A stretch of DNA of 45,521 nucleotides, taken from a virus. Below are positions 2 to 45,521 of the stretch, one piece after another. The notes under the pieces are model-generated. The model searched no databases, had not been told where the DNA came from, and worked only from the letters and a program-made list of their open reading frames with translations. The stretch spans positions 1-45,521 of the IMG/VR virus record IMGVR_UViG_3300046656_000327; one strand, given 5' to 3'. Numbering within the stretch: the first letter of the stretch is position 1; each line of letters opens with the position of its first letter. The translations under genes were made by a program, and so were the position numbers.

Positions 2-742
2 GCCGAGATCACCCTGCTGTTCGAGCAGCTCGGGCAAAACTACGGACACGCCGGACGACTCTACGCTCAGTACCTCGCAACGCATGCTCCTGAAATTGAG
101 CGGCGAGTTCAGGAAATGTTCAAGCGTCTCGCAACGGCAGGCAACATGGCCGCGCAGGAACGCTTCTGGTTCGCCATCATGGCGTCGCTCGTCGTCGGCG
201 CGGAGCTGGCCGAGAAGGTAGGGCTGATCAAGGTGGACATCCCGTCCCTGCTCGGCTACCTGATGAAGAACCTGTACAAGCTGCGCACCCGCAGCACCGA
301 CGCGCTCAGCTCCGTGGAGCCCGTCGAACTGTTAGCCGCCTTCATGGGTGCCTATCAGGATCGCGCACTGCTGGTCGAGAAGTTCCCAACAGGCAAGCAG
401 AACAGCCGTACCTACCTACCCAACGTGCTCAGCGTGCCGCGTGGCGACAAGATCGTCTATCACGCGAGTCAGACAGAGGAGCGAATTCGCTTCCCGGTTG
501 CCGAGATGTGCAGGTGGTTAGAGTCGCGCCAGCTTCCGTCTGGTACGATCATGCGGCGATTCAAGACAGAGCTGAACGCCGAAGAGATGCGGTTCCGCCT
601 CGGCATGGGTACGAAGTGGGAGCTGCCGCCGCAGCGCTGCATGGAAATCGTTTTGAGTGGATCGGCTGCCTCGGCAGCCATGATTGATACGCCGCCCGGT
701 CTGCCTGAAGATCGTCCGACAGACACCCCTGCCGACGAATAG
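2..742 (+). CDS. DUF927-like primase/helicase, C-terminal part (5' truncated)
   Basis: The reading frame is open to the left edge, so the true start is outside the window. The first visible segment, reading NYGHAGRLYAQYL, followed about 30 residues later by an ERFWFAIMASLVVGAELAEKVGL stretch, resembles the C-terminal end of DUF927-type phage primase/helicase proteins (COG5519 group), which act in DNA replication. The ATPase core would lie upstream and cannot be checked. The last 40 residues are Pro/Asp/Thr-rich and look like a flexible tail. It is the only rightward gene in the left 29 kb. Its stop lies 5 bp from the stop of the leftward HNH gene, so two transcription units converge here. The family call rests on motif memory; the partial coding status is firm. 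Confidence 0.5.
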   Translation, partial: AEITLLFEQLGQNYGHAGRLYAQYLATHAPEIERRVQEMFKRLATAGNMAAQERFWFAIMASLVVGAELAEKVGLIKVDIPSLLGYLMKNLYKLRTRSTDALSSVEPVELLAAFMGAYQDRALLVEKFPTGKQNSRTYLPNVLSVPRGDKIVYHASQTEERIRFPVAEMCRWLESRQLPSGTIMRRFKTELNAEEMRFRLGMGTKWELPPQRCMEIVLSGSAASAAMIDTPPGLPEDRPTDTPADE

Positions 743-29483: not shown

Positions 29484-30002
29484 ATGGCTGCCAAGCTCGC
29501 TTCGACGAAGACTCAGCAGCAGGTCACAGCTCCGGGCACTGATGTGTCGCTCGATCTGTCCTCGCTGAGCGCACATATTGCTGCTGAACTAGCTGCGGGA
29601 CTCTCCGACGCAGCCGCTATTCGTGAGCGCTACGACGTGTCCCCCGAGCAGTGGGACGTGCTGCGTCAGAACCCTGTCTTCCGTGAGATGGTGAAGGACG
29701 CCATCACCAAGCTGCGCGGCGATCTCAACGCTGGCAAGCGCATCACGCTCAAGAGCGAGATCGCACTCGAAGACACGATCGGTACGCTGTACCTCATGGC
29801 AAACGACTCAGCGATCCCCGCTGCAGCTCGCGTCGAAGCCGTGAAGACGCTCGCCTCACTGGCCGGTCGCAACATGAAGGGCGACGGCGGTGGCGGCGCT
29901 GGCGGCGGTGGGCCGGGCTTCGCGATCAACATCCAAATCAACACCGGCACCGAAGAGAAGGTCGTGTCGGTCGAGAACCGCCAGCTCATCGAAGCTGCAT
30001 GA
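29484..30002 (+). CDS. Putative terminase small subunit
   Basis: The 172-aa product sits directly before the large subunit with an ATGA overlap, the usual arrangement. An N-terminal disordered part is followed by a helix-turn-helix-like stretch (AAELAAGLSDAAAIRERYDVSPEQWDVL), which would recognise the packaging site. A helical oligomerisation region follows (MVKDAITKLRGDLNAG...ALEDTIGTLYLMAND), then a glycine loop (GGGGAGGGGPG) and a final strand. Role: to choose and hand phage DNA to the motor. The identity is inferred from position and layout. Its upstream region carries a palindrome. Confidence 0.75.
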   Translation: MAAKLASTKTQQQVTAPGTDVSLDLSSLSAHIAAELAAGLSDAAAIRERYDVSPEQWDVLRQNPVFREMVKDAITKLRGDLNAGKRITLKSEIALEDTIGTLYLMANDSAIPAAARVEAVKTLASLAGRNMKGDGGGGAGGGGPGFAINIQINTGTEEKVVSVENRQLIEAA

Positions 30003-31402
30003 ACGCGGTAGTCAATTTCAAGACTCCGCCGACGATCGGGCGCTTCATGCTCGACAAGTCGTTCATCCGTTTCATCATCGGTCCCGTCGGCTCAGGCAAG
30101 TCCGTCGGTTGCATCATGGAGCTGCTACGTCGAGCGCGCGAGCAAGCCCCCGATGGTCAGGGTGTTAGGCGCACACGCTTCGCGATCATTCGCAACACGC
30201 TCCAGCAAATCAAACAAACCTGCCTCGCCGACATCGAGATGTGGATCAAGCCCATCGCGCACTACAAGGTGACCGATCAGGCGATCCACGTGCGGTTGGT
30301 TTTGAGCGATGGCACGAAGGTCGAGTCCGAGTGGCTACTGATGCCACTGGACACGCCCGAAGACCAGAAGCGACTTCTTTCGCTGAACCTGACCGGCGCG
30401 TGGATTTCTGAATTCCGCGAAGTGCATCTCAAGATCGTGGACGGCGTCGTTGGTCGTCTCGGCCGCTTCCCTGCCAAGGCCATCGCGCCGCTCACATGGC
30501 ACGGGCTCATCGGGGAGTCCAACCCGCCCGACGAGGACTCCGAGTGGTACGGAAAGCTTGAGGTCGAGACGCCCCCGAACTGGAAGGTCTTCAAGCAGCC
30601 GGGTGGCATGGAGCCCACTGCTGAGAATCGCGAAAATCTGCCGGACGACTACTACGAAAATCTCGTGGCTAACAACTCCGAGGATTGGGTGGATGTCCAC
30701 GTCAACGCGAACTACGGTAAATCGCTCAGCGGTCAAGCCGTCTTCCGCGCGACCTTCCGTCCTGAATTTCACGTCACGTACCAGACACTCCGCGCCATCC
30801 CCGGCATCTCGCTGATGATCGGGCAGGATTTTGGTCGCACTCCAGCAGCCCTCATTGGTCAGGTCGATCCACGGGGTCGGCTGCTCATCCTGAGGGAAGC
30901 CACTTCGATCGACATGGGTATCGAGAAATTTTGTGTCCAAGAGCTACGCCCCATGTTGCTCAGCTACTTCACCGGATTCCTCGCCTACATGGTCTGCGAT
31001 CCGTCGGGCCGATACAAAGCACAGGTCGGCGAGGAGAGCCCGTTTGATGTTCTCAAACGCCTGAGCTTCAAAAGCTACCCCGCACCTAGCAATGATATTG
31101 AACCTCGCCTTCGCGCGGTCGAGCAAAGCCTTCTTCGTCAAATCGATGGAGGACCCATGGTTCTCATCGATGGTGGAAATTGCCCCCAGCTCGTTCAAGC
31201 GATGAAGTTCAACTATCGGTACAAACGAAAGAAAGATGGCGCGCTCGACGAGTCACCTGACAAGAGCCACCCGTGGTCCGATCTCGCGGACTGCCTGCAG
31301 TACATGTGCCTGTCGGTGAATGGTGGATACATCGGGAAGTTGTTAGCTCGTGAAAAACCGGTGGTGCGTGGCCCGCGCGTGTCGGTTGCGAGCTGGACCT
31401 AG
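29999..31402 (+). CDS. terL: Terminase large subunit
   Basis: The 467-aa protein contains a Walker A motif GPVGSGKS at 28-35 and a Walker-B-like AWISEFRE, with E138 as the likely catalytic glutamate. The nuclease half has IGQDFGRTP (D277), MVCDPSG (D334) and a final SHPWSDLADCLQY segment, giving the three acidic residues of an RNase H-like nuclease. It is the motor that pumps DNA into the prohead and cuts concatemers. It starts inside the end of the small subunit gene. Its stop and that of the glycosyltransferase on the other strand share the same CTAG bases, so the two genes converge with a four-base overlap. Confidence 0.93.
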   Translation: MNAVVNFKTPPTIGRFMLDKSFIRFIIGPVGSGKSVGCIMELLRRAREQAPDGQGVRRTRFAIIRNTLQQIKQTCLADIEMWIKPIAHYKVTDQAIHVRLVLSDGTKVESEWLLMPLDTPEDQKRLLSLNLTGAWISEFREVHLKIVDGVVGRLGRFPAKAIAPLTWHGLIGESNPPDEDSEWYGKLEVETPPNWKVFKQPGGMEPTAENRENLPDDYYENLVANNSEDWVDVHVNANYGKSLSGQAVFRATFRPEFHVTYQTLRAIPGISLMIGQDFGRTPAALIGQVDPRGRLLILREATSIDMGIEKFCVQELRPMLLSYFTGFLAYMVCDPSGRYKAQVGEESPFDVLKRLSFKSYPAPSNDIEPRLRAVEQSLLRQIDGGPMVLIDGGNCPQLVQAMKFNYRYKRKKDGALDESPDKSHPWSDLADCLQYMCLSVNGGYIGKLLAREKPVVRGPRVSVASWT

Positions 31403-39630: not shown

Positions 39631-40000
39631 TCGGCTTCTCCCTGATGTATTTCATTGCGAGTTCGAAGTTGTTAGCCGCCTGCCGCATCGCGGCCCGCGC
39701 GTGCTCATCCCATAGAACTACGGCCATCGACTCGCACCACTCCCGGTGCGCTTCGAGCCGCGTGAGGATTTCATCCGATGTGGGATGCGAGGGCAAGCCC
39801 GGTTCATGACTCGGTGCCGTCGGGACACGCGGCGTACCCGGTGCCCCCGCCCCCCGTCGCTGCAGGAGAAGAACCACAGCGTTGATCGCTGCGTGGAGCG
39901 TGAGCCCGCCGCGTGCGTGCTGGCGGAACAGGGGCTCGATGATCGCGCGTTCGACAGGCGTGCCGAGCGTCTCTGCGATAGGTGGGTCAGCTTGGGCCAT
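39623..40000 (-). CDS. Hypothetical 125-aa protein
   Basis: AGGAATGAAAG precedes the ATG at 40000. The product has a helical start (PVERAIIEPLFRQHARGGLTLHAAINAVVLLLQRRGAG), a Pro-rich linker (APGTPRVPTAPSHEPGLPSHP) and a helical C-terminal part (EILTRLEAHREWCESMAVVLWDEHARAAMRQAANNFELAMKYI). This looks like two helical modules joined by a flexible link. Nothing identifies a function. It overlaps the MazG-like gene by eight bases. Confidence 0.6.
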   Translation of the reverse strand: MAQADPPIAETLGTPVERAIIEPLFRQHARGGLTLHAAINAVVLLLQRRGAGAPGTPRVPTAPSHEPGLPSHPTSDEILTRLEAHREWCESMAVVLWDEHARAAMRQAANNFELAMKYIREKPNV

Positions 40001-40003
40001 CTT

Positions 40004-40273
40004 TCATTCCTCTTTCAGTTTTTCCCACGAGCGCTGCTGGATTCTGAACGCCGCGTAGTGGATGTGTTCGGCCGGGGTCGGTGTGAAGAAGGGTTGGTAG
40101 TACCGTGCGTCGGGATTCTCGGGCTCGACGTGGATCAAGCATCCGACGACGTGGACGGTGTGACCGTTGTCGCGGTGCCACTTAATCCAGTCGATCACCT
40201 GACGCATGATGTCCTCGGGCTTCTCCGAGTTCCAGTTCACGAAGGGGACGACGTTGCTAGGGGGTTCGGTCAC
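40004..40273 (-). CDS. Hypothetical 89-aa protein
   Basis: The GTG at 40273 (in a GTGA overlap, with GAGG nearby) is preferred to the longer frame. The product includes VTEPPSNVVPFVNWNSEKPEDIMRQVIDWIKWHRDNGHTVHVVGCLIHVEPENPDARYYQPFFTPTPAEHIHYAAFRIQQRS. The middle is a short alpha/beta element with strand 'HTVHVVGCLIHV'. A small alpha-beta phage protein of unknown function. Confidence 0.6.
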   Translation of the reverse strand: MTEPPSNVVPFVNWNSEKPEDIMRQVIDWIKWHRDNGHTVHVVGCLIHVEPENPDARYYQPFFTPTPAEHIHYAAFRIQQRSWEKLKEE

Positions 40274-40473
40274 TTGGTGCCTCGGGTGCGCGCTGGTGGT
40301 TTGATCCGGAACTGTAAGTCTCGACGTGCCCAATGGTCCCAAAGCAGAAAGTGACCTGATGGAAGCCCAAGGAAAAAGTCCTGCGCTGCCCTATCTATTG
40401 AGTGACCCGATAGAGCTGATGACGCGGTGATCAACTCCGCTATGTCACGTATTGCCTCGGGGTCTCGGTTCAC
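40270..40473 (-). CDS. Hypothetical 67-aa protein, first gene of leftward small-gene run
   Basis: GTG start at 40473 without a good ribosome-binding site, so the true start is uncertain. The product (MNRDPEAIRDIAELITASSALSGHSIDRAAQDFFLGLPSGHFLLWDHWARRDLQFRI) is a short helical protein with a Trp-rich middle and basic C-terminus. It is the most upstream gene in the leftward run. A TTGACA hexamer lies about 30 bp upstream on the minus strand, but no matching -10 box is clear. Confidence 0.5.
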   Translation of the reverse strand: MNRDPEAIRDIAELITASSALSGHSIDRAAQDFFLGLPSGHFLLWDHWARRDLQFRIKPPARTRGTK

Positions 40474-40698
40474 GTGGGCCAGTCAAGCACATGATTCAAT
40501 ATCTGTCAAACATATTGATGAAGGGGCTAAAGGGGGACGCCGCCCCCCCACCCCCCTTGGCCTGATACCCCCGGGGTCACGGCGTGACGTTGTGCCTTCG
40601 TGCTCTGAACATTCTTTCCCTAGCGCTGTTATATGAATGGGTGACGCGGATGGGCCGCGTTACTCAGTGAGTAACTAAACACATTTGGAGCACATGAT
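40474..40698. promoter_or_regulatory. Divergent intergenic control region
   Basis: No gene is visible in these 225 bp. They separate the leftward small-gene run from the rightward early genes. The plus strand carries a possible promoter, TGAACA (40606), then 18 bp and TATATG (40630), which would start transcription just before the palindrome at 40659-40675. A run of C residues at 40541-40558 makes the minus strand very G-rich, with scope for a G-quadruplex. The minus strand also holds a TTGACA hexamer at 40504-40509. Promoters are inferred. Confidence 0.5.
40659..40675. promoter_or_regulatory. Palindromic operator-like site, copy 1
   Basis: GTTACTCAGTGAGTAAC is a perfect 8-1-8 inverted repeat, 24 bp before the ATG at 40699. 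The same 15-bp core occurs at 41308-41322, 42231-42245 (centre base C) and 43055-43069, so it is a dispersed protein-binding site rather than a local hairpin. Being downstream of the inferred promoter, binding here would block transcription of the 177-aa gene. Confidence 0.8.
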
Positions 40699-41232
40699 AT
40701 GAAAGCCAAGATGAATACGGGTCGCGATGCTGTGGCGCTGGCGTTGGCGCATGCCTACGAAACGGCTGCGAACACTGGCAGCAAGATCGCTGAGGTTTGC
40801 ACGATCGCGCGCACAACGTACAAGGGCGCGGAGATTCCTGAAGCCGACGTGGAACACATTGTCAGCAAGGTGGCGGAATCGCGCGGCTGGGAAGGTGCGA
40901 CGCTGAAGGTGCGCTCATCGGAAGCGCGAAAGGTGTTAGGCGTCTACAGCACGTTGCCGGAAGGTATCGAGCAGGTGCGGGCAAAGCGTGGCGCGTGCGA
41001 TTGGCGCTCCGCGCTCAAGGTGGCGACGTGCCTGAAAAAGCACGATGGCAAGCTCAAGCCCGCGATGGCTGCGTTCCTCACGGGATCAGAGAACGACCCT
41101 GTTAGCCCGTCGGGCCGCGCTGCATCGGCGCTCAAGCGCTGGTACAAGGTCGCGAAGGGCGACAAGAAAGCGAAGATCATCGAAGCGGCGGAATTGCTGG
41201 GCCTGAAGCTCGGCGTCACCACGACTCACTGA
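40699..41232 (+). CDS. Hypothetical 177-aa protein, monocistronic early-type gene
   Basis: A GGAG site lies eight bases before the ATG. The product is basic and mostly helical: an N-terminal part (RDAVALALAHAYETAANTGSKIAEVCTIARTTYKGAEIPE), a middle with CDWRSALKVATCLKKHDGKLKPAMAAFLTG, and a Lys-rich C-terminal (KRWYKVAKGDKKAKIIEAAELLGLKLG). I recognise no domain. The gene stands alone between its own palindromic operator and its own terminator, the arrangement of an autoregulated early protein, so a DNA-binding regulator is a reasonable guess. It could also be a host-takeover protein. Confidence 0.65.
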   Translation: MKAKMNTGRDAVALALAHAYETAANTGSKIAEVCTIARTTYKGAEIPEADVEHIVSKVAESRGWEGATLKVRSSEARKVLGVYSTLPEGIEQVRAKRGACDWRSALKVATCLKKHDGKLKPAMAAFLTGSENDPVSPSGRAASALKRWYKVAKGDKKAKIIEAAELLGLKLGVTTTH

Positions 41233-41250
41233 GCGAGCGTGGAAAAGTTT

Positions 41251-41286
41251 GGAGCACGTGCTTGTGGCGTGCTCCTTTTCTTTTTG
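41251..41286 (+). terminator. Rho-independent terminator after the 177-aa gene
   Basis: A perfect 8-bp stem GGAGCACG / CGTGCTCC with a 9-nt loop is followed by TTTTCTTTTTG. It lies 19 bp after the stop codon, so the preceding gene forms its own transcription unit. Confidence 0.88.
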
Positions 41287-41306
41287 CCTCCGCGTGCTGT
41301 GAACTG

Positions 41307-41323
41307 GTTACTCAGTGAGTAAT
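41307..41323. promoter_or_regulatory. Palindromic operator-like site, copy 2
   Basis: GTTACTCAGTGAGTAAT has the same perfect 15-bp core as copy 1, located 21 bp past the terminator. It therefore lies at the head of the next rightward unit. A second inverted repeat, TGTCACA (41330-41336) with TGTGACA (41362-41368), enclosing GGGA/TCCC, follows directly. Confidence 0.78.
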
Positions 41324-41766
41324 CGGCCATGTCACACAGCGCAGGGAGCATTCCCGGCCTCTGTGACATCGTGATCTTGTGACTAGGTGCTACGAACATC
41401 GCACGGTTACGACCGTTATCATCAGCACGTACGCCACGCCGTGATCCGGGCTCGCTGGCAGGCATCATTGCGGGAATGATGGGCCGATTAGCAATGATCG
41501 GAGGTATCCAAAGCCGCGCGCAGCGCCTACTTACACTATCATATATATCATTACATCATTTAAAAAACTACAACTACTCTACGAATTCAAGCAATCGAGA
41601 CACTAGGCGTTTGGCCCCGAACCACTGTGTTTGTAGTGTAGCTGTTCTTTTTTTACCCCACTCTTGATATAGATGATGCGCTAACCACCTGATCACAAAG
41701 GCGCATCATTGCACGCGCCAAGAGCAATGATCAGAATAAAGATACGCATCATCGGAGGATTCACAC
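41324..41766. promoter_or_regulatory. Long leader/control region before the 121-aa gene
   Basis: About 440 bp hold no convincing gene; a 63-codon frame inside is of poor composition. The middle (about 41533-41660) is much more AT-rich than the rest of the window. Inverted repeats are CATCATT/AATGATG (41463-41469, 41475-41481), ATGATGCGC/GCGCATCAT (41673-41681, 41701-41709) and ATCATTGC/GCAATGAT (41705-41712, 41724-41731). The last two share bases and cannot both form. The words GCAATGATC and ATCGGAGG both occur near 41491-41504 and again near 41724-41758. This could be a control leader or a replication origin; nothing proves either. Confidence 0.45.
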
Positions 41767-42132
41767 ATGCGATACCGACAGAACCAAGGCAGTAAGGCAC
41801 GACGCGTCAAAGCGCGCCACATCGAGCTGCTCCATCAGGCACTCGGGCATTTCCAGCTCAAGCACGCCGGAACCAACCCCGGGCTGCGCAATCGAGCGCG
41901 GCTCGTCGCCGCCGCGTTACCCGCATCTGCGCCCTACGAACTGCGTCTGTTCGCAGAGGAATGGCAGATCGTGAGCCAAGCACTGCGGCCCGTCGGCAGC
42001 ACACCACGACCGGGCGGATTGGCCGCGAAGTACTACGCTTTGTACACGCTGCTGCGAAAGACCTTCGTCTTCGCCACCATGGGGGACGATGTGCGAGCAA
42101 AAGCGTTATCACAGCGCCGCGCACCCCAATAG
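41767..42132 (+). CDS. Hypothetical 121-aa basic protein
   Basis: A strong GGAGG site precedes the ATG. The basic product (MRYRQNQGSKARRVKARHIELLHQALGHFQLKHAG, NRARLVAAALPASAPYELRLFAEEWQIVSQALR, GLAAKYYALYTLLRKTFVFA) is mostly helical. It ends with a basic tail. No family recognised. It is preceded by a long structured leader and followed by the long inverted repeat element, so it seems to form its own unit. Confidence 0.6.
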   Translation: MRYRQNQGSKARRVKARHIELLHQALGHFQLKHAGTNPGLRNRARLVAAALPASAPYELRLFAEEWQIVSQALRPVGSTPRPGGLAAKYYALYTLLRKTFVFATMGDDVRAKALSQRRAPQ

Positions 42133-42142
42133 TTCCTAACAG

Positions 42143-42240
42143 CAGTGAGTAATGATCAGCGCCCCATGGGTCGCGTCCATCCCCGTGTGCTCCACACAGG
42201 CGCGACCGATCCATCATGGGGCGCTGTTCGTTACTCACTG
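42143..42240. repeat. 98-nt near-perfect inverted repeat (hairpin/cruciform element)
   Basis: The outer arms, 42143-42167 and 42216-42240, are 25 bases each with two mismatches. Inside them lie GGTCGCG (42169-42175) with CGCGACC (42201-42207), and at the core GTGTG (42185-42189) with CACAC (42193-42197) around a 3-nt loop. Almost the whole element can pair with itself. The outer ends are CAGTGAGTAA and TTACTCACTG, half-sites of the palindrome family. There is no T-run, so it is not a standard terminator. It lies between the 121-aa and 223-aa genes. Confidence 0.85.
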
Positions 42241-42246
42241 AGTAAT
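42230..42246. promoter_or_regulatory. Palindromic operator-like site, copy 3
   Basis: GTTACTCACTGAGTAAT carries the same 15-bp palindrome core with C instead of G at the centre. It overlaps the right end of the 98-nt inverted repeat and lies 34 bp before the ATG at 42280, so it is placed to control that gene. Confidence 0.78.
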
Positions 42247-42279
42247 GCACAATCAAGCCCATCAAACAGGAGATATCCA

Positions 42280-42951
42280 ATGACTGAATCCATGCCAAGA
42301 ACGGGGTGCGGGGAAACCAAGGAGCAGGCGTTACACCGCTGCGCGTGGAACCTGCTCGCGTACATCGACGGCCCCATGAGCTTCAACCTGCTCGACATAC
42401 GCTTGCTAGGCAAGCTGCGCACTGCGTGCAACGAAGCCAAGATACTCGGGCAGAGCGCGAACCTAGCCACGGCGGCGCGAGCCGTGCTGAGCGACATCGA
42501 CACCAAGTACCCTCACTCGGAGTCGGCGCATCTGCATACATCCATGATGATCAGCCTCGAAGCTGCGCTCGAACCGTTCGAGTCCACGGCGACACAGGTT
42601 CCGCATCTGGACTCGTGGGTCGAGTGGGCGGAGAGCAACGACATCGAGCACGATGACCAGAGCGTGCGCCAAGGCACGTCGACACCGCCGCGCGAGGACA
42701 TCTACGCACGTGCTGCGAAGGCGATCCTCGGCACGCCCACCAAGTTCGACCTGTATACGCGCGTCACCCTAACCGATGATTCGGTTACGTGGTTGAAGCA
42801 GCGTATGTCCATGCTCAAGCTCGACCTGCTCATCGAGAAGAAACGCATGCTCAAGGATCGCGGCGCTGACACCACCAAGTACGCGTTGATCTTGGCAGGC
42901 ATCGAGCAGGACCTGCGCGAGATCAACGTAATCGTCGACGCGTTATCATAA
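42280..42951 (+). CDS. Hypothetical 223-aa protein
   Basis: An AGGAGATATCC site precedes the ATG at 42280; the open frame continues upstream through the palindromic element, but no site supports an earlier start. The product has a helical N-terminal half (TKEQALHRCAWNLLAYIDGPMSFNLLDIRLLGKLRTACNEAKILGQ). A polar linker rich in Asp, Glu and Ser follows near residues 120-140, then a C-terminal coiled-coil-like end (WLKQRMSMLKLDLLIEKKRMLKDRG). No known family. It heads a rightward run of small genes. Confidence 0.65.
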   Translation: MTESMPRTGCGETKEQALHRCAWNLLAYIDGPMSFNLLDIRLLGKLRTACNEAKILGQSANLATAARAVLSDIDTKYPHSESAHLHTSMMISLEAALEPFESTATQVPHLDSWVEWAESNDIEHDDQSVRQGTSTPPREDIYARAAKAILGTPTKFDLYTRVTLTDDSVTWLKQRMSMLKLDLLIEKKRMLKDRGADTTKYALILAGIEQDLREINVIVDALS

Positions 42952-42968
42952 GCACAAGGGGTAGATAG

Positions 42969-43106
42969 ATGGACGCATTCTTCGCAGTATGGATCACGCT
43001 CGTTGCCGGGCTGGTGGGCATCGGCATCGTGTTCGAGATGATCAACGACTACAGTTACTCAGTGAGTAACCAGCCCACCGAAGGGAGTATCGAAGATGAC
43101 ACCTGA
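42969..43106 (+). CDS. 45-aa single-span membrane peptide
   Basis: A short frame after AAGGGGTAGATAG codes MDAFFAVWITLVAGLVGIGIVFEMINDYS, a clear membrane segment of about 20 residues, then SYSVSN (the six residues encoded by palindrome copy 4) and an acidic tail. It overlaps the next gene by 11 bp. It may be real, as small phage membrane proteins are common in early regions, or a chance frame around the palindrome. The hydrophobic pattern supports it. Confidence 0.5.
   Translation: MDAFFAVWITLVAGLVGIGIVFEMINDYSYSVSNQPTEGSIEDDT
43054..43070. promoter_or_regulatory. Palindromic operator-like site, copy 4
   Basis: GTTACTCAGTGAGTAAC is identical to copy 1 over all 17 bases. It lies 26 bp before the ATG at 43096 and inside the 45-aa membrane peptide frame. 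Its distance from the start codon is similar to that of copies 1 and 3, which suggests that the same protein controls these units. Confidence 0.8.
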
Positions 43107-43290
43107 AGAAGCAGAGGCGATGCTGAAGCGCATCGACAAGCCAGCCACGGAGGAGGAGATCATCGCGTTCAAGGAATACCTGAAGACCGATGTCGGCGCT
43201 ATCCAGACCGCGCTCTTCCATCACTGGCTGCCCGTCAACAAGGCATTGATCATGGACATGCAGAAGCGTGGCCTGATGAGTAACAACTAA
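43096..43290 (+). CDS. Hypothetical 64-aa protein
   Basis: A GGGAG sequence lies before the ATG. The product (MTPEEAEAMLKRIDKPATEEEIIAFKEYLKTDVGAIQTALFHHWLPVNKALIMDMQ) is a small helical, acidic protein. It starts 26 bp after palindrome copy 4. No family recognised. Confidence 0.6.
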   Translation: MTPEEAEAMLKRIDKPATEEEIIAFKEYLKTDVGAIQTALFHHWLPVNKALIMDMQKRGLMSNN

Positions 43291-43304
43291 CAAGGAGCAC
43301 GACG

Positions 43305-43733
43305 ATGAGTGGATCAATCAGACTGCACCCCGAGCATGGGGTGAACCCAACCGTATCCGTATGTTTCTTCTGCTCGAAGGACAAGAACGAGCTAGCGTTG
43401 CTAGGCGCTGCATACAAAGGACAAGCCCCGCACCGCATGGTGCTGAACTACGAGCCCTGCGAGGAATGTCAGGGGCACATGGCGAAGGGCATCACGTTAC
43501 TCGAATGCACGGCGAACCCCAACACGCCGAACCAACCTTCGATACAGAAGGCGCGCGATGTCTACCCCACCGGTAGATGGGCCGTTATCACCGAAGACGC
43601 GGCACGACGCATGCTGTCCAACGAGGACGGCAGCACCAACGAGATGCTCGAAGCCACGCTGAAGTATCGCAAGGCGTTCGTCGAGCCGGGCATCATACCC
43701 ATGGAGGCACCGGGCAGTGACACACCACAATGA
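43305..43733 (+). CDS. Zinc-ribbon-like protein (142 aa)
   Basis: The ATG follows AAGGAGCACGACG. CFFC at residues 20-23 and CEEC near 51-54 form two C-x-x-C pairs that could hold a zinc ion; the surrounding SVCFFCSKDKNELALLGAAYKGQAPHRMVLNYEPCEECQGHMAKGITLLEC is a compact domain. The C-terminal part is strand and helix (RWAVITEDAARRMLSNED, EMLEATLKYRKAF). Similar zinc-ribbon proteins occur in phages and plasmids without known function. It overlaps the next gene by 17 bp. Confidence 0.65.
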   Translation: MSGSIRLHPEHGVNPTVSVCFFCSKDKNELALLGAAYKGQAPHRMVLNYEPCEECQGHMAKGITLLECTANPNTPNQPSIQKARDVYPTGRWAVITEDAARRMLSNEDGSTNEMLEATLKYRKAFVEPGIIPMEAPGSDTPQ

Positions 43734-44842: not shown

Positions 44843-45087
44843 ACGCCGCGATCGGGACGATATCCAAGACAGGAGCCATGAAGGTAGCCGACGACTGCTA
44901 CGTGGCTGATTGGATATGGAAGCGAGCACCGTTCAAAGCACGCCCTGCGAACGCGCTCTCTAACAACTGGCGTGTCGACAACTACAAAGGGGTGGCCGTC
45001 GATCTCAACATATCCGAGGAGGAAGCCAAGGCGAAGGCCGACCAATACAACACGTGGGCTGCGACAGCTCAGTTACTCAAGGAGTAA
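44839..45087 (+). CDS. Hypothetical 82-aa protein
   Basis: ATGA overlap with the preceding gene. The product (MNAAIGTISKTGAMKVADDCYVADWIWKRAPFKARPANALSNNWRVDNYKGVAVDLNISEEEAKAKADQYNTW) has a strand-rich start and ends in a helix EEAKAKADQYNTWAATAQLL. It is one of four consecutive overlapping small genes. Function unknown. Confidence 0.6.
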   Translation: MNAAIGTISKTGAMKVADDCYVADWIWKRAPFKARPANALSNNWRVDNYKGVAVDLNISEEEAKAKADQYNTWAATAQLLKE

Positions 45088-45089
45088 CC

Positions 45090-45308
45090 GTGAGGATCAG
45101 TCAGACCAAGAAGTACGGCCCTAACAAGAACAGGTTCGATGATGGGCCATACACAACCATCGTCGACACCACTAACAAGAAGGAGAAGTTCATCATCAAG
45201 AATAAGCGAGGGAATTGGGTGCACCGATGTGCAACGCCTGAGCTGGCTGTCTCGTATCGAGATCGATGGAATCTCAAGTTCGCTGAATGGGTCATGTTGA
45301 AGCCATGA
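45090..45308 (+). CDS. GPY-motif small protein (72 aa)
   Basis: GTG start following AAGGAGTAACC. The product has RFDDGPYTTIVDTTNKKEKFIIKNKRGNWVHRC and ends FAEWVMLKP. The blocks D-G-P-Y, (I/V)-(K/R)-N-K-R-G and W-x-M-L-K also occur in the genes on either side, so it is a member of a tandem family. Its stop overlaps the next ATG by ATGA. Function unknown. Confidence 0.62.
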   Translation: MRISQTKKYGPNKNRFDDGPYTTIVDTTNKKEKFIIKNKRGNWVHRCATPELAVSYRDRWNLKFAEWVMLKP

Positions 45309-45511
45309 ACTTCAATGGCAGGACGAAGGACCCGATCGAGTGGGTGAGCAACGCACCGAAGCTCGACTTCAGCGATGGACCTTACGTGGTGGTGCATGCA
45401 CACATGAGCATGTGGCCCGATCGCGAGGAACTCAATCGTCGAATGGTGTTATCACACGTTGTTAGGAACAAGCGAGGAGACAACCTTATCGAGAGTAGCG
45501 AGTATTGCTAA
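45305..45511 (+). CDS. GPY-motif small protein (68 aa)
   Basis: The ATG overlaps the previous stop. The product contains LDFSDGPYVVVHAHMSMWPDREELNRRMVLSHVVRNKRGDNL, sharing D-G-P-Y and R-N-K-R-G with the preceding gene. It lacks the W-x-M-L-K end and stops at the very end of the window. It is the last visible member of the right-end family. Confidence 0.6.
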   Translation: MNFNGRTKDPIEWVSNAPKLDFSDGPYVVVHAHMSMWPDREELNRRMVLSHVVRNKRGDNLIESSEYC

Positions 45512-45521
45512 CAACGTGTGA

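Follow-up and report, generated by a model that had tools for sequence, protein, structure and literature searches.

Towards the end of the 45,521-nt virus record analysed here as a whole (hereafter the window), the features follow one another in the order gene A, a T-tailed terminator, the second copy of a dispersed palindrome, an AT-rich stretch, gene B, a 98-nt hairpin (42143-42240), the third palindrome copy and gene C (Table 1). The phage is uncultivated, and its group is linked through the terminase to Rhizobium phage RHph_TM3_14A and, at a greater distance, to BcepC6B. The hairpin is intercistronic between genes B and C, both on the + strand. It starts 10 nt after the stop of gene B and ends 39 nt before the ATG of gene C and about 27 nt before its AGGAG Shine-Dalgarno sequence, which remains outside the stem. 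Upstream of its ATG, the frame of gene C has no stop codon across the entire hairpin; the GTG at 42145 has no clear Shine-Dalgarno sequence and is probably not used as a start. A scan of positions 39900-43400 disclosed no promoter-like site, and the transcription units considered below are therefore assumed.

Table 1. Position of genes, palindromes and hairpin arms in the distal part of the window
Feature	Position	Strand	Remarks
Palindrome copy 1	40659..40675		23 nt upstream of gene A
Gene A, 177 aa	40699..41232	+	G023 has a weak counterpart (23% identity; E 6e-4, small database searched)
Intrinsic terminator of gene A	41251..41285	+	Stem 41251-41275 plus T-rich tail
Palindrome copy 2	41307..41323		31 nt past the stem of the gene A terminator
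AT-rich non-coding control region	41412..41760		Repeats CATCATTG/CAATGATC; block GACCGTTATCAT common with G023
Gene B, 121-aa ORFan	41767..42132	+	No counterpart in G023
Left arm of hairpin	42143..42168	+	First 10 nt are the operator half-site CAGTGAGTAA; inverted repeat I1
Upstream extension of gene C frame	42145..42279	+	Open through the whole hairpin (GTG AGT AAT...)
Right arm of hairpin	42215..42240	+	Bases 42230-42240 double as the left half of copy 3
Palindrome copy 3, GTTACTCACTGAGTAAT	42230..42246		Overlaps the right end of the hairpin
Gene C, 223 aa	42280..42951	+	Leader ACAGGAGATATCCAATG; G023 has ACAGGAGAATATCCATG
Palindrome copy 4	43054..43070		Lies within a small ORF, at its 3' end; the ORF at 43096 follows after 25 nt
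Palindrome copy 5	45072..45088		2 nt before the GTG start read at 45091

Protein relatives of gene B were found neither in viral contigs nor in phages, nor among 199 genomes belonging to the same family as the Luteimonas genome, the last being a weak search that had no positive control. The GC skew of this gene is negative, opposite to that of gene A. Relatives of the gene C protein were likewise not found in viral contigs. Gene C contains the peptide PHLDSWVEWAE, and an identical piece of DNA slightly longer than 30 bp is common to the window and the related record G002, apparently at the PHLDSWVEWAE of its ATPase (L048 15562-16635), for which internal duplication or recombination is a possible source. 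The AT-rich region is a candidate origin or promoter region. The outer end of an inverted repeat of 17 nt, TCACACGTTGTTAG...CTAACAACGTGTGA (45452-45521), is exactly where the record itself terminates, possibly because assembly stopped at a hairpin.

The outer arms of the 98-nt element, 26 nt each and 46 nt apart, are 92% complementary with two mismatches, and the top stem is closed by a 3-nt loop (GUGUG-CUC-CACAC), which confirms the nearly full self-complementarity and the small loop described in an earlier note on this DNA. When its folding energy was compared with that of shuffled sequences, as that note had proposed, the + strand RNA reached an MFE of -63.8 kcal/mol (z -10.0), a value matched by 0 of 200 shuffles. 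The - strand RNA folds with -63.1 kcal/mol (z -9.2), and the single-stranded DNA with a z of -10. Among 757 overlapping segments of 120 nt covering the 45.5-kb record, the hairpin is the most extreme (z -9.2), with the runner-up at -5.5 and the whole distribution at a mean of -0.2 (sd 1.2). The T-run that follows the GC-rich stem of an intrinsic terminator is absent on either strand, and a terminator scan of both strands did not list the hairpin, though it detected the good terminator of gene A at 41251-41275; the element is thus no ordinary intrinsic terminator, as supposed before.

The hairpin is present in one copy in the virus record. It has no copies in viral contigs and no match in plasmids, and DNA searches of phages with the element and with the region around it gave nothing beyond insignificant matches of 22-24 nt. 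Scanning the window against Rfam at the gathering score gave no family match, and a tRNA scan gave no match either.

The base of the hairpin is built from half-sites of the five-copy palindrome GTTACTCAnTGAGTAAC, so that the operator half-sites reported earlier at its ends were indeed recovered, the right one as the left half of copy 3. Since copy 3 is itself palindromic, the presence of GTTACTCACTG in the right arm already dictates CAGTGAGTAA in the left one, and the half-sites at both ends are one coincidence, not two. A 12-nt direct repeat, CAGTGAGTAATG/CACTGAGTAATG, brackets the hairpin, with one copy in the left arm and the other at 42236-42247. Its interpretation as a target-site duplication was dropped: the complete operator is on one side only, and an insert would need to bring the other half.

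The palindrome family (GTTACTCAnTGAGTAA) comprises five sites in the last 5 kb, corresponding to 10 strand matches where 0.4 are expected. Four of the five precede, by no more than 60 nt, a start that has a Shine-Dalgarno sequence (1.2 expected). Comparable positions are occupied by 6 of 14 palindromes in the related record G001 (3.0 expected) and by 6 of 8 in G005 (1.9 expected), and by none in G003, G007 and G008. We infer that the family represents the sites bound by a phage regulator; no candidate for it was identified among the window proteins scanned.

Similar dispersed sites are known in Cluster K mycobacteriophages, where start-associated sequences (SAS) and extended SAS (ESAS) occur in many copies per phage, several just upstream of start codons, and for about one half of the SAS genes a pair of imperfect inverted repeats with a spacer in between stands immediately upstream (PMC3203893). 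The SAS is an asymmetric 13-bp sequence, GGGATAGGAGCCC, whereas the site in the window is a symmetric palindrome, only one copy of which is accompanied by a long inverted repeat; the phages and sequences are unrelated. The stoperators of Cluster A (L5) are mentioned in the same paper as 13-bp sequences that act in transcription regulation (cited in PMC3203893). Like them, the repeats of the window are multiple, dispersed, similar to binding sites and located at gene boundaries, which suggests a single regulator. The present family is palindromic with a spacer of 3 or 4, unlike stoperators, which have an asymmetric sequence and an orientation.

Related records were reached by palindrome scans of viral contigs, in which a lone exact match would be expected by chance. 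Outside this phage, these scans recovered the palindrome family of the earlier note with up to 14 exact copies, and up to dozens of copies altogether in relatives at 37-42% TerL identity. The TerL and portal proteins mark records G001 and G003-G008 as true relatives, with TerL about 37-42% identical to that of the window; G002 is a fragment from an early region, and its relatives are the early genes of RHph_TM3_14A and G003. G001 (L047) has 14 copies, 12 of them with a 4-nt spacer; G002 (L048) has five, all with the 3-nt spacer used in the window; and G003-G008 have many, mostly near-matches. Other TerL relatives have different palindromes (TTACTCG in L101, GTTACC in L103, TTACAACCGTTGTAA in G023). 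Two variants, TTACTC..GGGTAA and TTACCC..GAGTAA, were counted 9 and 8 times in G005, without sorting by gene strand; these counts fit independent DNA half-sites and not RNA pairing, and the palindromes were accordingly rejected as small RNA hairpins. Tandem arrays of TTACTCACGTGAGTAA palindromes at 21-nt spacing were observed in G006 and G007 (L057 9493-9600, L061 8432-8540).

Two further observations concern genome organization. The C-terminal part of a primase-helicase is encoded in the window (116-742) and an N-terminal part in G002 (L048 1-1225); this record, which uses the same palindrome with the 3-nt spacer, may be the missing early region of the window phage or of a close phage. TerL is inverted relative to the portal, the small terminase and a neighbouring glycosyltransferase-like gene in the window (29999-31402) when compared with its closest relatives (L076 9980-11398, L077 5264-6706).

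The closest relative that reaches the hairpin region is G023 (TerL 61%). Its control region (L236) comprises a palindrome ahead of a gene with weak similarity to gene A, then a stem resembling a terminator, an AT-rich region that has GACCGTTATCAT in common with the window, a second palindrome and the next gene. The leader of this gene, ACAGGAGAATATCCATG, nearly equals the gene C leader ACAGGAGATATCCAATG, and the proteins downstream of the two leaders have no similarity. Neither gene B nor a long palindrome or hairpin is present there, the lowest z of the region (-4.15) being located near the end of the gene A counterpart. The operator therefore does not need the hairpin, which is probably a lineage-specific addition. 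Strictly, the block of gene B and hairpin could have been added in the window lineage or lost in G023; addition seems simpler, and is favoured also by the ORFan status of gene B and by its GC skew opposite to that of gene A.

Stems beside palindromes recur in more distant relatives. G001 contains a 382-bp imperfect palindrome that includes an operator (self-alignment score 139, compared with at most 20 in mononucleotide shuffles), and in L101 palindromes of 34-44 bp are centred on the operator site. Hairpins with half-sites in the stem, ending in AAGGAG before the following gene, were found in G003, G004, G006 and G007; the hairpin ATATCAATGGGTTA/TAACCCATTGATAT of G003 and G004 appears as ATATCAATAGGTTA/TAACCTATTGATAT in G008, a paired change. 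A T-tailed terminator stem directly adjoins a palindrome of G002 (L007 10469), an 18-bp inverted repeat is found in G001 at 27 nt from a palindrome, and in the window a T-tailed terminator stands just ahead of copy 2. Summed over seven related records, z is -4 or lower in 17 of 171 scanned segments near a palindrome and in 23 of 2051 elsewhere, an excess that derives in part from palindromes, including tandem ones, folding on themselves. None of the operator-containing palindromes of relatives is homologous in sequence to the window hairpin, which indicates a tendency and not conservation of this element; as it has no alignable homologue, compensatory changes could not be followed on the hairpin itself. 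The G001 palindrome was rejected as its counterpart in favour of a better match to the AT-rich region of the window. The earlier note had treated loss of the stem in related phages as an argument against the element. On this point the evidence is divided: G023 has lost or never had stem and gene B, while long palindromes containing operators do recur further away.

We tentatively interpret the hairpin, with a probability of roughly 0.4, as an intercistronic stem-loop that bounds the gene B transcript and incorporates the left half of an operator in its base. The reading takes into account the extreme and unique fold, its position directly behind the gene B stop, the recurrent stems beside palindromes, the lack of gene B relatives, and the state of G023, which has the operator and the gene C leader and lacks both gene B and the hairpin. 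The hairpin would have been added to the lineage probably together with gene B. In a putative B-C transcript the stem would fold on its own and at once, forming a gene boundary that might protect the 3' end of gene B mRNA, offer a double-stranded processing site or attenuate read-through. Copy 3, as an operator in duplex DNA at the right edge of the hairpin, would serve the control of gene C as a putative binding site of the regulator that would use all five palindromes, and this regulator, once bound, would form a roadblock immediately beyond the hairpin. With their bases in common, stem-loop and operator would then be a compact unit, not a two-state switch. Against this reading, the missing T-run means that there is no intrinsic termination at the hairpin, and the almost equal folding of both strands leaves room for a function at the DNA level.

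Intercistronic RNA stem-loops in phage operons are RNase III sites and 3'-end stabilisers. The window hairpin resembles them in its long, near-perfect stem between two cistrons and the absent T-run, the resemblance being one of predicted fold; it differs in that the base of its stem doubles as an operator half.

Among other explanations, it is rather unlikely that the hairpin arose, as a near-perfect inverted repeat with no selected function of its own, from template switching or recombination at the operator during the gain of gene B. Such a scar would be consistent with its absence from G023, with the bracketing 12-nt direct repeat, and with the location of the gene B/hairpin block where G023 passes from the control region directly to operator and next gene. 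It fits poorly with the preservation of the inner stems as well as the base, with a fold that is by far the strongest in the record, and with the recurrence of operator-associated palindromes in relatives.

A DNA-level role in the origin or control region, as a cruciform or single-strand hairpin used in replication, appears unlikely. The hairpin is placed at the start of a rightward block of small genes near the AT-rich repeat region, related phages encode a primase-helicase, of which the C-terminal part of one is in the window, the 382-bp palindrome of G001 is in a control region and contains an operator, and in distant TerL relatives pairs of inverted iterons precede TerL by about 2-3 kb. 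However, G023 has its AT-rich control region without this hairpin, the two are on opposite sides of gene B in the window, and the G001 palindrome seems to correspond to 41412-41760. For the replication or nicking origin suggested in the earlier note, the candidate is that AT-rich, repeat-rich region and not the hairpin. The G001 palindrome (L029 4712-5093, equal to L047 9926-10307) has TTTGGGCAACG iterons and AT-rich arms and looks origin-like. The inverted iteron pairs are of TATCTA type and span about 120-160 nt (L131 7801-7956, L143 4281-4423, L150 3938-4056, and also L116 and L119). A telomere (protelomerase) site was discarded as well, the annotated 'integrase' of RHph_TM3_14A matching primase/helicase families.

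Descent from a REPIN or similar mobile palindrome taken up from a host, decayed and later merged with the operator, is improbable. The hairpin is, like REPINs and GTAG-tagged REPs, GC-rich, extragenic and of similar size (PMC3116915, PMC3733652, PMC8266576), and its 11-nt arm core is identical to that of Xanthomonadaceae REPINs. This core, AGCGCCCCATG...CATGGGGCGCT, was found in 76 genome stretches, mostly of Luteimonas, Pseudoxanthomonas and MAGs related to these, in the form of GTAGGAGCGCCCCATGGGCGCGA REPIN pairs, but the stretches had been selected by that very match, and a profile built from them gave the hairpin only 8.7 bits (E 0.09-0.23). Instead of the GTAGG...CCTAC ends it has TGATC and GTTCG, and no GTAG motif precedes the palindrome. 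It also has operator half-sites at its base, and no REP-associated transposase was seen. A BLAST search of 11 of those genomes gave no strong match, the best (E 0.0017, 20 nt) being an isolated place that is not a REPIN. With the GTAG ends and the copy number missing, the hairpin was not classed as a REPIN despite the resemblance of its core, and the mobile element proposed earlier is not borne out by an element that has a single copy in the virus record, no copies in viral contigs, no plasmid match and insignificant phage matches. Dozens of GTAGGAGCGCCCCATGGGCGCGA REPINs were recorded in Luteimonas mephitis and related genomes (L156-L231).

We likewise give little credence to a small structured RNA or a structured leader of gene C: the very strong fold just upstream of this gene, and the half-site hairpins of G003, G004, G006 and G007 that end in the AAGGAG of the next gene, would suit it, but no Rfam match or promoter was found, and the Shine-Dalgarno sequence of gene C is outside the stem.

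A regulated switch between mutually exclusive copy 3 and hairpin, as the earlier note envisaged, is very improbable, for although bases 42230-42240 take part in both pairings, the operator fold of the RNA reaches -6.8 against -63.8 kcal/mol, leaving no balance, and G023 keeps the operator without the hairpin. Hardly more credible is a DNA version in which a regulator would hold the copy 3 duplex and block extrusion of the 98 nt, its release allowing extrusion and altered transcription or replication at the B/C junction.

Taken alone, the hairpin read as a gene-boundary stem-loop would be a modest example of bases common to an operator and an RNA stem, interesting without being a new kind of system. 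If the reading is right, a large group of uncultivated phages would have a little-described control layout, in which dispersed palindromic operators shift in sequence and spacer between lineages and some of them bear strong stem-loops. From this layout, a concrete search for the regulator and its promoters could set out.
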